The notes: generated by a model from the sequence alone, not told the origin. DNA of 64,000 nt from Chitinophaga pinensis (GCA_945861665.1 CAMAVS010000003.1:124001-188000), one strand, 5' to 3'. Shown: positions 9,387-47,902, numbered from the stretch's first letter. Numbers and translations are program-made.

Positions 9387-10256
9387 ATGAGACAATTAAA
9401 AATTACTAAACAAGTTACCAACCGTGAAACTGCATCCCTCGACAAATACCTTCAAGAAATAAGTCGTCTCGATTTAGTTACGGCCGATGAAGAAGTTGAA
9501 TTGGCTAGAAGAATTAGAGCAGGTGATCAAGATGCATTAGATAAGCTTACAAAAGCAAATTTACGATTTGTAATATCGGTATCAAAACAATATCAAAATC
9601 AAGGACTAAGTTTACCTGATTTAATTAATGAGGGAAATTTAGGTCTTATAAAGGCAGCTCAACGTTTTGATGAGACACGTGGTTTTAAATTTATTTCGTA
9701 TGCGGTTTGGTGGATACGGCAATCGATATTGCAAGCATTGGCTGAACAATCGAGAATTGTGAGGTTGCCGCTGAATAAAATTGGAGCACTCAATAAAATA
9801 AATAAAACATTTTCGCTATTGGAGCAGCAATTTGAAAGAGAGCCATCGGCCGAAGAAATTGCAAAAATTTTAGAAATAACAGAGGAAGATGTTAAGGATT
9901 CACAACGCAATATGGGTAAACATATATCTATGGATGCTCCCTTAAATATATCTGACGACAATACTGGTAGTCTTTACGATGTATTGCAGAGTGAAGATAG
10001 TCCTAGCCCGGAAAATGGTTTGATAGGTGATTCATTGCGTAGAGAAATTGAAAGAGCGCTTGGAACACTTACCAGTAGGGAGGCAGATGTAATTCGTTTT
10101 TATTTTGGTTTAAGTGGTGAACATTCAATGACATTAGAAGAAATTGGAGAAAAATTTGAACTCACTCGTGAAAGGGTTCGTCAAATAAAAGAAAAAGCTG
10201 TAAGGCGATTGAAAAACACTTCTCGATGCAAGCATTTGAAAGCATATTTAGGATAG
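9387..10256 (+). CDS. rpoD: Primary RNA polymerase sigma factor RpoD (sigma-A)
   Basis: A 289-aa group 1 sigma factor of the short Bacteroidota form, with no region 1.1. Region 1.2 begins at about residue 18 ([10 protein letters not shown]). Region 2 contains the core-binding and -10 recognition helix ([20 protein letters not shown], then [15 protein letters not shown]). Region 3 follows, and region 4 carries the helix-turn-helix ([28 protein letters not shown]). This protein should read the TTG-n19-TAnnTTTG promoters found across the window. It appears monocistronic, with 123 nt upstream and a short gap to rpe, which has its own -7 element. Confidence 0.97.
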
Positions 10257-17289: not shown

Positions 17290-17319
17290 TTTGTAGTAGA
17301 ATAATTTCTGTTACATTTG
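17290..17319 (+). promoter_or_regulatory. Consensus promoter of the orphan response regulator
   Basis: TTTG (17290-17293), 18 nt, TACATTTG (17312-17319). The expected transcription start falls at about 17324-17326, exactly where the first Fur-like palindrome begins, so a bound repressor would cover the initiation site. Confidence 0.7.
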
Positions 17320-17324
17320 CGTTG

Positions 17325-17341
17325 TTTAAAATCATTCTAAA
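17325..17341. promoter_or_regulatory. Fur-like operator, site 1
   Basis: TTTAAAAT-C-ATTCTAAA is an 8-1-8 palindrome with a single mismatch to the two perfect copies upstream of the TonB receptor. The 7-1-7 core (TTAGAAT-N-ATTCTAA type) resembles Fur/PerR boxes. It lies between the -7 element and the TTG start (17347) of the response regulator. Confidence 0.6.
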
Positions 17342-17346
17342 TAAAA

Positions 17347-18012
17347 TTGAGTTCAAGTATCAACATATTAATTGCCGACAATAGCTACCTTGTTCGTACA
17401 GGATTAAAAGCTTTATTGGCAGGTAATCAGGATTTTGTTTTTTCAGGTGAGGCCTGCGATTCAGGAGAACTGGCAGAAAAACTTCTTTTTTGTCAGCCCG
17501 ACCTGCTTATTATAGACAGTAATTGCAACAGTTTTTCTACCCAAGATATTAAAGTTTTGCTAAATAAAAATAAGAATGTAAAAGTTCTTTCTGTTTGTTC
17601 TCATCAGGATAAATTGTCACTTGCACGCTCTATAGAGATAGGAATACATAGCTTTTTATTGAAGGATTGTGATATGGATGAAATTACCGAGGCCATTTAC
17701 AAAACAGCAACCGGAAATAAATTTATGTGTGGTAAGATTGTTGCGATTGTTACAAATGAAACTTCAAGTGAAACTTCCTGCGAAGGGTTCAATATTACTG
17801 AAAGGGAAATAGAAATAATAAAACTACTTGCCGAAGGAAATTCCAATAAACAAATCGCAGATATTTTATTTTTAAGCACTCATACTGTAAATACACACCG
17901 TAAAAATATTATGGCAAAAGTGGGTGTAAATAATGCTGCAGGCTTAGTACTTTTTGCGGTAAGAGAAAACTTGATTTCCCCCAATAAATATCTTTTCTCA
18001 TCTCCCAATTAG
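17347..18012 (+). CDS. Orphan LuxR/NarL-type response regulator
   Basis: A 221-aa protein, TTG start; no better start codon fits. The receiver domain covers about residues 5-120, with the phosphoacceptor D57 (LLIID) and K106 (FLLKD). The usual paired N-terminal acidic residues are D11-N12, so one acid is replaced. The C-terminal LuxR-type helix-turn-helix (about 150-212) reads ITEREIEIIKLLAEGNSNKQ, then LSTHTVNTHRKNIMAK. No histidine kinase is adjacent. The start is overlapped by a Fur-like operator that also occurs twice before the downstream TonB receptor, which suggests metal-responsive expression. Confidence 0.92.
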   Translation: MSSSINILIADNSYLVRTGLKALLAGNQDFVFSGEACDSGELAEKLLFCQPDLLIIDSNCNSFSTQDIKVLLNKNKNVKVLSVCSHQDKLSLARSIEIGIHSFLLKDCDMDEITEAIYKTATGNKFMCGKIVAIVTNETSSETSCEGFNITEREIEIIKLLAEGNSNKQIADILFLSTHTVNTHRKNIMAKVGVNNAAGLVLFAVRENLISPNKYLFSSPN

Positions 18013-18028
18013 TTTTAATAACTAATTG
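18006..18028. repeat. Hairpin overlapping the response regulator stop codon
   Basis: CAATTAGTT (18006-18014) and AACTAATTG (18020-18028) form a perfect 9-bp stem with a 5-nt loop spanning the TAG stop at 18010-18012. It is AT-rich and lacks a U-tract, so it is at best a weak terminator or a transcript-stabilising hairpin. Confidence 0.4.
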
Positions 18029-18047
18029 ACAATCAGGATTAATATTA

Positions 18048-18064
18048 TTTAGAATCATTCTAAA
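18048..18064. promoter_or_regulatory. Fur-like operator, site 2
   Basis: TTTAGAAT-C-ATTCTAAA, a perfect 8-1-8 palindrome. Its centre is 37 bp upstream of the centre of site 3, about three and a half helical turns. It lies just upstream of the predicted -33 element of the TonB receptor. Confidence 0.65.
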
Positions 18065-18079
18065 ATACCCTTTTTTAGG

Positions 18080-18106
18080 TATTGTTTAGAATGATTCTAA
18101 ACAATA
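18080..18106. promoter_or_regulatory. Fur-like operator, site 3 (27-bp perfect palindrome)
   Basis: The half-site TATTGTTTAGAAT is followed by a central G and its exact reverse complement, giving a 13-1-13 perfect palindrome. The core equals site 2. It occupies the spacer between the predicted -33 (TTG, 18082-18084) and -7 (TATTTTTG, 18105-18112) of the TonB receptor promoter, an arrangement expected for direct repression. Confidence 0.7.
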
Positions 18107-18112
18107 TTTTTG
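18082..18112 (+). promoter_or_regulatory. Promoter of the FecA-like TonB receptor
   Basis: TTG (18082-18084), 20 nt, TATTTTTG (18105-18112). The ATG at 18142 follows 29 nt later. The spacer is almost entirely filled by the palindromic operator. Confidence 0.65.
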
Positions 18113-18141
18113 TTCTGTTAATCTATTTATATAAATTCAAT

Positions 18142-20334
18142 ATGAAAAAATCACTCATACTTATCTCTATTAGTATTGTCGCATTTTCAACTGCGTATTC
18201 ACAACAAAACGACAGAGCAAAAGTAATAACCCTAAAAGAAGTTGTAGTTAAGGGAAATCAACCTTTGGGCATAGACCGTATGCCTGATTTAAAAGATAAT
18301 GTAATTTATGCAGGTAAAAAAACTGAAGTAATACAAATGAATAAAATAAATGCCGACCTAAGCACTAACAATACTCGTCAGATTTTCGCAAAAGTTCCGG
18401 GAATGAGCATTTGGGAAAATGATGGTTCAGGTATTCAGGCGGGAGTGGCAACACGAGGGTTAAGCCCGAATCGTTCATGGGAATTTAACGTTAGGCAAAA
18501 TGGATATGATATTAGTTCGGAAGTTTTTGGTTACCCTGAAACCTATTATACTCCTCCAATGGAAGCATTGGAAAAAATTGAAGTAATACGAGGAGCAGCA
18601 TCTTTGCAATATGGTCCGCAGTTTGGAGGATTGCTCAATTATCAAATTAAAAAAGGAAATCCAAACAAGCCTATATCATTTGAAACGCAACAAACCGTTG
18701 GCTCTTATGCTTTATTTAATACATACAATGCCATTTGCGGAACGCACAAAAAATTTTCCTATTATGGATTCTTACATCATCGTACTGCCGAAGGGTGGCG
18801 TAATAACAGTCGTTACAATATTTACACAGGATATTTTTCTGCAAACTATCAGCTAACAAAAAAAATAAATATAGCAGGAGAATATACTAATATGAATTAT
18901 AAAAGTCAACAGCCGGGAGGACTTACCGATGTTCAGTTTAAAGAAAATCATCGTCAATCGTTCAGAGAAAGAAATTGGTTCGGTGCTCCGTTTAATGTTG
19001 CATCGCTCACAGTTAAATATGATATTTCTACATCAGTAAATTTACAAATCAAATCATTTGCTACGATTGCAGAACGAAACAGTGTTGGTTTCACTAAATC
19101 TATCACAACAAAAGACAGTATAAATCCTACTACACTTCAATACAGTGCAAGACAAGTAGACAGGGATAATTACGAAAATTACGGAACGGAAGTAAGTGTA
19201 TCGGTGAAATATAAATTCTTTAGTAAAGAAAATATTTTTGCAGGGGGCATAAGAGCTTACAGCGGAAGCACAAAAAGAAATCAACTTGGAACAGGAACAA
19301 CTGGCAATAATTTTGATTTAACGCTCACCAATCCGCAGTACGGACGTTCGTTAGATTTTGGAACAACGAACTATGCCGCCTTTGCTGAAAATATTTTTCA
19401 AATTGGAAAACGGCTTAAAGTAGTGCCGGGCATTCGTTTTGATTATATTGAAAATCAAAGCGAGGGATATATTAATACAACAAAAACAGGTACATTAAAT
19501 TCTAACAAAAGAGTACGCCAACTTCTACTTTATGGAATTGGAAGCGAATTTAAGGTTACAGAAAAAACAAACCTTTATGGCAACTATTCTCTAGCGTATC
19601 GCCCTGTTACATTTTCAGAACTTACTCCTTCCGCCACTACTGAAATCATTGATCCGAATTTAAAAGATGCAAGCGGTTTCAATGCTGATTTTGGTTATAG
19701 GGGTAATGTAAAAAACTATTTGAGTTTTGATGTTGGCATGTTTTACCTGCACTATGATAATCGTATAGGAACGCTTACTCAAAATGGAGCGCCTTTCAAA
19801 ACGAACATTGGCACATCAGTAAGTCAAGGCGTTGAATCGTATATTGAAATAGATGTTGTGAAAATATTTACAGAGAAATCAAAGGTTGGAAGCATCAGTT
19901 TTTTTGCATCTAATTCCTTTATTGATGCAAAATATGTAAAGTGGAATAATCCTGCGATTGCAAATGACCAAGCAAAATCAATTGAAAATAAACGAGTTGA
20001 AAATGCGCCACAATACATTCATCGCTTTGGAGCAACGTATTTTCTGAAAGAATTTTCTGCAACATTTCAATTAAGCAGTGTTGGAGATGTATTTACCGAT
20101 GCAGTAAATACAGAGACACCAAATGCGACAGGAACTATTGGAAAACTTTCAGGATATCAAGTAATGGATGCATCCCTTTCATACAAATTTATGGAATATT
20201 ATAATTTTAAAGCCGGTGTAAACAACATTGCTGACCAAAAATATGCAACCCGCAGGGCTGGCGGTTACCCTGGACCTGGCATTATGCCGGGTAATGGCAG
20301 AACTGTTTTTGTGAGCATCGGTGCATCATTCTAA
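18142..20334 (+). CDS. TonB-dependent receptor, ferric-citrate (FecA)-like
   Basis: The frame is open from 18082, but that stretch is the operator and promoter. The ATG at 18142 gives a signal peptide (MKKSLILISISIVAFSTAYS) and about 730 aa. There is no N-terminal carboxypeptidase-like domain, unusual for many receptors of this phylum. The plug domain (about 25-190) contains VPGMSIWENDGSGIQAG, TRGLSPNRSWEFNVRQNGYD and IEVIRGAASLQYGPQFGG. A 22-strand-type beta-barrel follows and ends in an aromatic residue (IGASF). The closest recalled group is the Fe(III) dicitrate/siderophore receptors. The Fur-like operators support iron import, but substrate is inferred. Confidence 0.9.
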   Translation: MKKSLILISISIVAFSTAYSQQNDRAKVITLKEVVVKGNQPLGIDRMPDLKDNVIYAGKKTEVIQMNKINADLSTNNTRQIFAKVPGMSIWENDGSGIQAGVATRGLSPNRSWEFNVRQNGYDISSEVFGYPETYYTPPMEALEKIEVIRGAASLQYGPQFGGLLNYQIKKGNPNKPISFETQQTVGSYALFNTYNAICGTHKKFSYYGFLHHRTAEGWRNNSRYNIYTGYFSANYQLTKKINIAGEYTNMNYKSQQPGGLTDVQFKENHRQSFRERNWFGAPFNVASLTVKYDISTSVNLQIKSFATIAERNSVGFTKSITTKDSINPTTLQYSARQVDRDNYENYGTEVSVSVKYKFFSKENIFAGGIRAYSGSTKRNQLGTGTTGNNFDLTLTNPQYGRSLDFGTTNYAAFAENIFQIGKRLKVVPGIRFDYIENQSEGYINTTKTGTLNSNKRVRQLLLYGIGSEFKVTEKTNLYGNYSLAYRPVTFSELTPSATTEIIDPNLKDASGFNADFGYRGNVKNYLSFDVGMFYLHYDNRIGTLTQNGAPFKTNIGTSVSQGVESYIEIDVVKIFTEKSKVGSISFFASNSFIDAKYVKWNNPAIANDQAKSIENKRVENAPQYIHRFGATYFLKEFSATFQLSSVGDVFTDAVNTETPNATGTIGKLSGYQVMDASLSYKFMEYYNFKAGVNNIADQKYATRRAGGYPGPGIMPGNGRTVFVSIGASF

Positions 20335-20427: not shown

Positions 20428-21282
20428 ATGATATTGATTGCAGATAGTGGTTCAACAAAAACAGATTGGAGGCTAATTGATTCCGAAAATAAAATACATC
20501 AGTTTAGTACACAAGGATTCAATCCCTATTTTCAAAGTCTTGAAGAAATTTCGGCTGAAATAAAAACTAAATTAGTTCCTATTTGTAGTATAAATTTAGG
20601 TGCTCCTTTGACAATTTTTTATTACGGTGCTGGATGTTCCAGTACAAATAAAAAGGAAATAATAAAGTGTGCACTATTGCAAAATTTCCCACAAGCAATT
20701 ATTGAAGTGGAACACGATTTATTGGCTGCTGCACGTGCTTTATGTGGTAAAAACAAAGGGATTGCAACTATTTTAGGTACTGGCTCTAATACGTGTTATT
20801 ATGACGGGGAAAAAATTGTACAAAACATCGATTCATTAGGATTTATATTAGGCGATGAGGGAAGTGGAGCTCATATTGGAAAAACATTTATGTCAGCCTA
20901 TTTAAATAAGGAATTGCCACAAGAACTTTCATTGCGATTTCAAGAACGCTTTTCTTTATCAAAAGAAATAATTCTTGAAAATATTTACAAGAAACCGATG
21001 CCAAATCGTTATTTGGCGTCTTTTAGTCAATTTATTTTCCAACAACAAAAAGAGCAAGTAGTTTTTGATTTGGTTGCCGATTGTTTTAGGCAATTTTTTG
21101 ATAAACATATATGCAAATACCCAATGCACAAACAGGTGAAAATAAGCTGTGTGGGTTCTGTGGCATTTTATTATAGTAATGTTTTGCGTTTAGTTGCTGA
21201 GGAAAAAGGACTTGTAATTGATAGGATTCTTGAATCGCCTATTGCGGGCTTGCTTTTATACCATACCGATAATCAAGACTAG
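20428..21282 (+). CDS. BadF/BadG-type kinase, probable N-acetylglucosamine kinase
   Basis: A 284-aa sugar kinase of the ASKHA fold. Phosphate-1 reads ADSGSTKTDWRL (residues 5-16). The connect/phosphate-2 region reads ATILGTGSNTCYYDG (about 113-127), followed by LGDEGSGAHIG, the hallmark of GlcNAc kinase-like proteins. It would phosphorylate an amino sugar recovered from peptidoglycan or chitin. It is monocistronic between the TonB receptor and the cystathionine beta-synthase gene. The substrate is inferred from family resemblance only. Confidence 0.88.
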   Translation: MILIADSGSTKTDWRLIDSENKIHQFSTQGFNPYFQSLEEISAEIKTKLVPICSINLGAPLTIFYYGAGCSSTNKKEIIKCALLQNFPQAIIEVEHDLLAAARALCGKNKGIATILGTGSNTCYYDGEKIVQNIDSLGFILGDEGSGAHIGKTFMSAYLNKELPQELSLRFQERFSLSKEIILENIYKKPMPNRYLASFSQFIFQQQKEQVVFDLVADCFRQFFDKHICKYPMHKQVKISCVGSVAFYYSNVLRLVAEEKGLVIDRILESPIAGLLLYHTDNQD

Positions 21283-45220: not shown

Positions 45221-47902
45221 CTAACAAATAGCTTTCCTCTCAAAACCAAACTCTAAAATCCGATCAATAAAGTCATAGGGTTTGTATCCATTGATAGCGG
45301 TTTGGTGAAAAATGCAAGTAGCAGGAGTCATTCCGGGCAATGAATTTACCTCAATGAAAATAACCTCTATTTCATTTTTATCGAACACACGTACAAAAGC
45401 GTCAATTCGGCAGTATCCGCTAACATTAAGTGCTTTGGCAGCTTTTTCAAGTTGTACCTTTACTTTATCCGAAATTAGTTGTCTGTCTGCTTTAATGTTT
45501 GAATACCGAGCGGGTGTAATGTTTTGACCTTGTCCTGCTAAAAATTTCTCTTCCAACGACAGTATTTCTCCATCTGCTAATGCTTCGGATGCTTCAAATA
45601 TTTCGTAACAAATGTTTCCATTTTTATCAAAAGTGGTAAGCATTCCACCTGTAATCTCTAAAAAGTGTTTCGCATTTTTTTTGCTGATAAGCTCTTCCAC
45701 AAGAAATTGTCTTTTTTGTGGAAATTCTTCGTTCAGTTTTACTTTTAATATTTCTGCACTTTGAGGGTTGAGGGTTATGGAATTTCTGAAAATTAATTCC
45801 GCAAAAGCAATTAGTTCCTGCTTTGTTTTTATTTTTCGCACTGCCGAACTACAGCCATCATCAACGGGTTTTGCAATAAAAGGGAAGGTTATTTTTTTTA
45901 GCAACTCCTCGATATATTTTTCAGGATTTATATTCCATTCATCGTCCTTTACAACAAAATGTTCGGCAACAAGTAAACCTTCTTTTTTTAGTATTTCGTT
46001 GGTTTCGTATTTGTTGATGGTAATGTTTGAACTGTTGGCATCAGATCCATTATAAGCCAATCCTACTTTATCTAACTCTCGTTGAACAGCACCATCTTCA
46101 CCGGGCTTACCGTGAAGTGCTATAAACACTCCATCTACGATCTCTTTCAGGTCGCTGTAGTTTATCTTTTTTGGTTTAGCAAGATTGTCAGTATGGGCAT
46201 ATTTTGTTGTGATATCGGATGCTTTTTCAATAATTTCTTTTACCACATCATGAACATAATAATTATCTATTTTCTCTTTAATATCGTCTGCATTGTCCTT
46301 CAATAAAATATTGATGGGAATCTGATACATCAAGTGATTGTTATCGTCACCTGTTAAGAAAATTGGAAATGGTTCATACTTTTCCGATGAGGCCAGTTTT
46401 TCATAAATATTTCTGCCACTTTCAATGGATATATGTCTTTCCGAAGAATAGCCCCCAAGCAATACAGCAATTTTAATTTTATTATGTTTCGCTTCTTTGT
46501 CATTTTGTATGCTGTTGTCTAATTTTTTTAAGAGGGAATTGTATGCGTCATTTATTCCTATTTCTTTTGCTCTTTCAGATAGTGATGTACGCAGTATATA
46601 AGTAAGAAATTGAGAAGGATTTAATCCAATTTCGGCAGCCTGATGAAAGAAAAAAGAAGAGGGCATCATTCCTGAAGTGGTATTTGGGTCGTTTAGGTAA
46701 ATAGTATTATCTCTTCCTATAAAACCATCTATACGGGCGTATACATTAAAGTGCAATGCACGAAAAAGTTTTTCGCACTCTAAACGGATGGCATCAATTT
46801 GTTCTTTAGGAACATCGATGGGTGTAATTTTACGTGCTAATCCTGGTAAGTATTTTGATCGGTAATCAAAAAGTTCTTTTCCTTTTCTGATTTCGGTAGG
46901 GGGAAGCGCAATTACATCGCCATTTTCTTTTTGTGCAACAATACAAGAAAATTCCTTTCCTTCAATAAATCCCTCAATGAGCACTGTGCTTTCACCATCT
47001 AGAGATTCAACAACTAAACCATCAATGTTTGTAAGTCCTTTGTTTAAAAAGTCTATTAATTGGCTTGGTTCGTAAATAATCTCTTCATCTATTTTTACGG
47101 GAAGTCCGATTCCTTCACGGATGTCAGAAAGCGTTTTAATGTATTCAACTTTCTCACTATCTTTCATCTTATTCCAAAAGGCGGAATTAATCCACCTTGT
47201 AAACAATGCCTTTTCCACGGCTTCCATAAAGGTAAATTCATCATCCGCTTTATGAAGTATGCTTATTCCAATGGATGAGCCTTGATGTGCCGACTTTACA
47301 ACAATTGGGAATCCAATTTCATTTTTTGCTTTTGTGAATGAGTCCTTGCAGTTTCCGTTTATCCAATCATTTCGATCAATGCTCATAAATTTAGGACTAT
47401 TAAACCCCGCATTGACCATTAATTTTTTTTGTATACTTTTATTGATACCAATCGAGGAAGGTAGAATTCCCGAGCCGGTATAGGGTATTTTTAAATATTC
47501 TAAAAATCCTTGAATGCGTCCATCTTCACCGTATGGTCCATGTAAGCAAAGGAAAGCAATATCAATTAATTGTGAAATGTTTTCGGATTCAATTTTTTTA
47601 CCAATTCGCGAAATCATTTCTTCTTGTTGGGATATGGAAAGGTTTCCCAAATTTTCAGCATATAACGGAAAAGTTTGATTGCCGGAAGGAAGAAATTCCA
47701 CAGGAGGATAAAAATCGCGAATACTTCCTTTGTAAATAAATTCCCAATTAAGTAGAATAAAGTTGCCAAAGCTGTCTACAAAAACAGGAATGGCTTCGAA
47801 CAAACTTTTGTTTAGGTTATCATATACTGTCCTGCCGCCCGCAAATGATATTTCTCGCTCTTTCGAAAAGCCTCCGAAAATGATTCCTACTTTTATTTTC
47901 AT
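45221..47902 (-). CDS. ddl: Tandem D-alanine--D-alanine ligase fusion (two ATP-grasp ligase units)
   Basis: An 893-aa protein of two complete Ddl-like units, about 1-465 and 478-893. Standard Ddl is 300-370 aa. Each unit has the Ddl N-terminal motif (GGFSKEREIS; GGYSSERHISIESGR) and the ATP-grasp loops. Unit 2 keeps the canonical end FIEVNSLPGMTPATCIFHQ. Unit 1 has YLNDPNTTSGMMPSS in its place, with the Glu and Pro-Gly altered, so it may be inactive or make a different dipeptide. The Ddl reaction supplies D-Ala-D-Ala for peptidoglycan. A consensus promoter lies at 47923-47950. Confidence 0.88.
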   Translation of the reverse strand: MKIKVGIIFGGFSKEREISFAGGRTVYDNLNKSLFEAIPVFVDSFGNFILLNWEFIYKGSIRDFYPPVEFLPSGNQTFPLYAENLGNLSISQQEEMISRIGKKIESENISQLIDIAFLCLHGPYGEDGRIQGFLEYLKIPYTGSGILPSSIGINKSIQKKLMVNAGFNSPKFMSIDRNDWINGNCKDSFTKAKNEIGFPIVVKSAHQGSSIGISILHKADDEFTFMEAVEKALFTRWINSAFWNKMKDSEKVEYIKTLSDIREGIGLPVKIDEEIIYEPSQLIDFLNKGLTNIDGLVVESLDGESTVLIEGFIEGKEFSCIVAQKENGDVIALPPTEIRKGKELFDYRSKYLPGLARKITPIDVPKEQIDAIRLECEKLFRALHFNVYARIDGFIGRDNTIYLNDPNTTSGMMPSSFFFHQAAEIGLNPSQFLTYILRTSLSERAKEIGINDAYNSLLKKLDNSIQNDKEAKHNKIKIAVLLGGYSSERHISIESGRNIYEKLASSEKYEPFPIFLTGDDNNHLMYQIPINILLKDNADDIKEKIDNYYVHDVVKEIIEKASDITTKYAHTDNLAKPKKINYSDLKEIVDGVFIALHGKPGEDGAVQRELDKVGLAYNGSDANSSNITINKYETNEILKKEGLLVAEHFVVKDDEWNINPEKYIEELLKKITFPFIAKPVDDGCSSAVRKIKTKQELIAFAELIFRNSITLNPQSAEILKVKLNEEFPQKRQFLVEELISKKNAKHFLEITGGMLTTFDKNGNICYEIFEASEALADGEILSLEEKFLAGQGQNITPARYSNIKADRQLISDKVKVQLEKAAKALNVSGYCRIDAFVRVFDKNEIEVIFIEVNSLPGMTPATCIFHQTAINGYKPYDFIDRILEFGFERKAIC

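Follow-up and report, generated by a model that had tools for sequence, protein, structure and literature searches.

Three copies of one palindrome flank an orphan response regulator gene of Chitinophaga pinensis and precede the receptor gene that follows it. Which protein reads these palindromes, and does the response regulator act in turn on the receptor? We analyzed a stretch of 64,000 nucleotides (the window). The response regulator (RR; 17347..18012, + strand) is a NarL/FixJ-type protein of 221 aa with a degenerate receiver, as judged from Pfam Response_reg and GerE matches and a residue survey. The receptor (18142..20334, + strand) is a TonB-dependent outer-membrane protein of 730 aa with a FecA-like fold, assigned from Pfam Plug and barrel matches, an AlphaFold model, and a PDB fold match. 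RR lies between a Polysacc_synt_2 enzyme gene and the receptor gene, with no sensor kinase beside it.

Fur-type palindromes at the RR and receptor promoters

Scanning for TTTAGAATNATTCTAAA, we recovered the three palindromes of the original prediction: box 1 (TTTAAAATCATTCTAAA, 17325-17341) with one mismatch, box 2 (TTTAGAATCATTCTAAA, 18048-18064) with none, and box 3, whose perfect core (18085-18101) lies within a perfect 13-1-13 palindrome, TATTGTTTAGAATGATTCTAAACAATA, over 18080-18106. No further copy had been noticed in the window, and indeed the sole other match at ≤3 mismatches, at 47488-47504, has three. Box 1 begins 5 bp past TACATTTG (17312..17319, + strand), the −7 element of the RR promoter, of the Bacteroidetes TAnnTTTG pattern that is kept in orthologs; the −33 TTG (17291..17293, + strand) lies 18 bp before this element. 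The box thus sits at the expected RR transcription start, as had been predicted. Box 2 is upstream of the receptor promoter and 37 bp from box 3. Also in agreement with the prediction, the palindrome of box 3 fills the 20 bp spacer between the receptor −33 TTG (18082-18084, + strand) and −7 element TATTTTTG (18105-18112, + strand).

Such sites are rare. Under a first-order Markov model of the window, 0.0125 exact sites and 0.54 sites at ≤1 mismatch are expected genome-wide, or 4e-6 and 2e-4, respectively, per 850-bp stretch. The whole genome (2.49 Mb, 13 contigs, 99.8% complete) holds exactly three sites at ≤1 mismatch, all at this locus. At ≤2 mismatches we counted 12 sites, versus 1 for the reversed control, and the nine additional ones are mostly intragenic. 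Among the weaker Fur-type sites of this genome, one precedes a gene for cytochrome c and another a gene for an A-type Fe-S carrier. The original prediction had proposed a genome scan to see whether the motif clusters before iron genes and before fur itself. Clustering at iron genes was borne out in relatives; in the own genome, a wider strong Fur regulon was rejected, given just three sites at ≤1 mismatch, and no box turned up upstream of fur.

In relatives, the motif precedes genes for TonB receptors, HmuY-domain proteins, DUF4856 proteins, and A-type Fe-S carriers, as well as Mrp, NqrA, hemerythrin, and multihaem cytochrome c genes. Multihaem cytochrome c genes preceded by a Fur box were seen at six loci (L225, L228, L229, L234, L239, and L259), RR-negative genomes included; in the own genome, such a gene has a box with 2 mismatches at L005:1501-1517. 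The genome encodes one Fur-family protein (157 aa, PF01475, E 1e-25), and a member of this family was found in 41/41 high-quality genomes examined. Its best PDB relatives are Fur proteins, with PerR a close second; the closest solved ones we take to be the Campylobacter Fur proteins.

The Fur box of Riemerella anatipestifer has been published as ATTTAGAATTATTCTAAAT, a 7-1-7 / 19-bp palindrome, and in EMSA the purified Fur protein bound promoters with predicted boxes, including those of TonB receptor and HmuR genes (PMC5609570). As given there, its 17-bp palindrome is identical to the window motif, and its sites likewise lie ≤100 bp from the start codon; the portion consulted describes neither a response-regulator layer nor a TACC-N8-GGTA site, unlike what we find here. 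The original reading of the 7-1-7 core as Fur-like therefore agrees with an EMSA-tested box. Together with the sole Fur-family protein and the placement before iron genes in relatives, this match supports a single metal-responsive regulator over RR and the receptor: the palindromes appear to be Fur boxes, through which Fur would switch off both genes.

An orphan regulator with a degenerate receiver

RR carries a receiver and a LuxR-type HTH (PF00072 and PF00196, both over cut-off). At its active-site positions we found D-N, D, C, and K, with no Ser/Thr at the T position. Compared with canonical paralogs, 97/107 RR orthologs have a non-acidic residue at the second acidic position, and only 3/107 retain the full DD, D, T/S, K set of a canonical phosphorylated regulator. 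Since 101/107 retain the phospho-Asp and 79/107 the Lys, RR may nevertheless be phosphorylated. The pattern fits pseudo-receivers, in which the second acidic residue is ~80% non-acidic (review, PMC12632262). Loss of this residue and an orphan gene are common to RR and pseudo-receiver regulators, for which control via expression level has been proposed (PMC12632262); unlike them, the RR family is only partly degenerate, as the retained phospho-Asp illustrates.

RR orthologs were detected at E<=1e-35 in 160/395 sampled genomes of the class; orthology was set by this limit, and RR-negative genomes in the same genera may hold sub-limit orthologs. Around the RR start, whatever the gene's location, the box is conserved as INDEPENDENTLY: 88/107 orthologs have it at ≤3 mismatches and 68/107 at ≤2, compared with 15/330 other genes of the same loci and ~1% of shuffles, while 19/107 are without a recognisable box. 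The claim that the orphan regulator shares the receptor's box control is thus upheld. In 72/88 boxed genes, 0-14 bp separate the end of TAnnTTTG from the box, and the usual gap is 0-8 bp, a position that would be suited to repression. In a sister genus (G004-G007; L083, L084, L085, and L087), the box is TTTAGAATGAGTTTAAT or close to it and contains the RR start codon.

A metallo-hydrolase gene, read by eye as encoding ribonuclease Z, lies upstream of RR in 60/107 ortholog loci. Iron genes near RR orthologs encode TonB receptors (13), FTR1 permease (4), DUF4856 (3), flavodoxin (2), and PepSY (1); in one of the three DUF4856 cases, an imelysin gene is next.

The receptor has a model of pLDDT 78, from a 17-sequence alignment. 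Its best PDB fold match is FecA (1kmp, E 7e-43, 19% identity), and with plug, barrel, and a fold nearest FecA it belongs among FecA-like receptors; at 111 bits it is far below the FecA equivalog cut-off of 1100. Searching a genome collection yielded 49 loci with relatives of the receptor, most of them in metagenome-assembled Bacteroidetes genomes. Where identity is ~60% or higher, almost every ortholog has a box, placed 37-110 bp ahead of the gene; it is usually the sole motif match of the whole locus and in most cases occupies the box 2 or box 3 position. This box is also kept in genomes without a detected RR ortholog. RR-receptor adjacency as a general rule was rejected, as the receptor has no RR ortholog for a neighbour in any of the 49 loci (L071 has a response-regulator match of 34%, 4 kb from a receptor relative); TonB receptors do recur beside RR at other loci. 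In the window, the gene next after the receptor is of BadF type (20428-21282), and this family directly follows RR at L092, L113, L121, L130, L164, and L165, an arrangement that insertion of the receptor gene between the two might explain. The window also encodes a sigma-70 family factor (regions 1.2 to 4) at 9387-10256.

A TACC-N8-GGTA repeat as candidate RR site

The original prediction had missed an inverted repeat located between receptor boxes 2 and 3, TACCCTTTTTTAGGTA (TACC-N8-GGTA, 7-2-7 type; 18066..18081), whose right arm is continuous with the −33 TTG. NarL and NarP sites are 7-2-7 heptamers, TACYYMT. The repeat likewise has inverted heptamers starting TAC and a 2-bp gap; it differs in its TACCNNN half-site, its AT-rich middle, and the lack of a nitrate link. 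The repeat resembles a NarL-type site, and we predict that it is bound by RR.

The locus is likely to form a coherent feed-forward loop, in which Fur represses RR and the receptor, and RR activates the receptor. When iron is sufficient, Fur would occupy box 1 at the RR transcript start, together with boxes 2 and 3, and both genes would be off. As iron falls, Fur would leave and RR would be made. Because its receiver is degenerate, RR probably works by amount, and phosphorylation may be unneeded. An RR dimer would then bind TACC-N8-GGTA, abutting the −33 element in a class-II-like position, and, once bound, would activate the receptor gene. Coherent feed-forward loops filter brief dips in their input, here iron, and strengthen the response.

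Plain co-repression by Fur is an unlikely alternative account, in which RR does not act on the receptor and TACC-N8-GGTA is the site of another iron-gene regulator. It would accommodate the observation that, among the receptor loci compared, RR adjoins this receptor in the window alone. However, the repeat at receptor orthologs co-occurs with RR: it is present in 13/13 RR-positive versus 2/13 RR-negative genomes (Fisher 2e-5; related genomes), and both exceptions are 1.9-Mb assemblies, maybe incomplete. Moreover, the closer receptor clade shows losses, with both RR and the repeat missing at L036, L037, L042, L044, and L046. The 7-2-7 geometry of NarL-type regulators and the frequent presence of the repeat before the gene adjoining RR also speak against co-repression.

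The wider sample bears on both accounts. The repeat with its promoter pattern occurs in 121/395 genomes (reversed control, 3), namely 86/160 RR-positive versus 35/235 RR-negative genomes (Fisher P 2e-16); P values are uncorrected for relatedness, and independence is overstated because the genomes are kin. The 35 RR-negative genomes are what co-repression would lead one to expect, and TACC-N8-GGTA is therefore not used by RR alone; some of them belong to genera having RR-positive members. Related but different repeats (such as TACCGTGATCACGGTA and TACCCAATATTGGGTA), perhaps sites of another regulator, stand at the same place before TAnnTTTG in RR-negative G336 and G127. Raw AATACC-N8-GGTATT counts per genome discriminated weakly because GC-rich intragenic matches add noise; requiring the AT-rich middle or the full promoter parted RR-positive and RR-negative genomes better. 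Feed-forward control of the receptor, raised as a possibility in the original prediction, thus gains support from a conserved repeat that co-occurs with RR; binding and activation by RR we infer.

The geometry of the repeat is narrowly defined. In RR loci, spacing 8 is singled out, with 44 matches versus ~8 per other spacing (the set includes a few overlapping loci), and GGTATTG and TAnnTTTG stand 20 bp apart in 32/38 cases and 19 bp apart in 5; some loci had been fetched on account of motif presence. In RR-positive genomes, the repeat precedes FeoA, FeoB, TonB receptor, HmuY, imelysin, DUF4856, SOD, and CbiX genes, and at most inspected sites a Fur box follows at a fixed offset of +3 or +39; none was found among the repeat-promoter sites inspected in RR-negative genomes. 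The exact window layout (repeat, TTG, Fur box in the spacer, −7) recurs in G074, G194, G200, G345, G373, G386, and G405. Directly after RR at L107, L115, L116, L117, L123, L127, and L161 lies a gene of a 276-280-aa family with a DRQFVRTYQS motif and no Pfam match (L107 tested), a candidate new iron-regulated outer-membrane protein; several of these seven loci carry both sites.

Elsewhere in the own genome, a single promoter has the strict repeat, that of an A-type Fe-S carrier gene (L295:2056-2075; C5:172955), where the Fur box has 3 mismatches. At all nine promoters of this kind that we found, the repeat and the −7 element (GG[TAnnTTTG]) overlap, with a Fur box after them. Five of the nine loci had been retrieved solely because of their Fur box, and eight are in relatives (L227, L246, L248, L249, L251, L266, L296, and L320). 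Overlap with −7 suggests that RR would repress these genes, the opposite sign of control.

Other candidate binders of the palindrome and known iron circuits

Binding of the boxes, TTTAGAAT-N-ATTCTAAA, by a DtxR-family repressor rather than Fur is very improbable. A DtxR-family protein (PF02742) is present in the own genome and 18/20 relatives, yet G014 has Fur, RR, and three sites at ≤1 mismatch with no detectable DtxR-family protein, and the 7-1-7 palindrome backed by EMSA is that of Fur (PMC5609570). That the palindromes are autoregulatory sites of RR is hardly credible and was rejected: box 1 is conserved at RR's own promoter, as autoregulation would have it, yet perfect boxes persist without a detected RR ortholog before receptors (L036, L037, L044, L046, L049-L051, and L053) and before cytochrome c, NqrA, and Mrp genes in RR-negative genomes (G008, G016, and G020).

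Fur control with RR as a second layer has parallels among two-component systems. In Pseudomonas, the Fur-dependent PfeRS genes lie beside the receptor gene they induce, PfeA. The same arrangement is described for PeuRS-PeuA of Vibrio parahaemolyticus, where a Fur-dependent regulator gene adjoins the TonB receptor that it induces, the receptor being Fur-dependent too (PMC4141801). Peu (PMC4141801) and Pfe encode a sensor kinase beside the regulator and respond to enterobactin, whereas here there is no adjacent kinase, the HTH is of NarL/FixJ type, the receiver is degenerate, and one regulator is predicted for many iron genes. We found no published description of the circuit in the literature searched, whose coverage leaves most subscription journals outside.

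The circuit recurs across the class and seems to be a widespread, hitherto undescribed form of two-layer iron control. More tentatively, RR could govern the response to iron starvation throughout the class: an orphan under Fur control with a degenerate receiver, present in ~40% of sampled class genomes, it would activate uptake genes from a −33-abutting TACC-N8-GGTA, repress A-type Fe-S carrier genes over −7, and be driven by expression level alone. Iron control in Bacteroidota is poorly mapped beyond Fur, and this locus points to a second regulator with a predicted site, targets, and fixed promoter geometry. The locus also suggests a simple way in which a kinase-less response regulator with a degenerate receiver might be switched, namely by Fur, via RR transcription.
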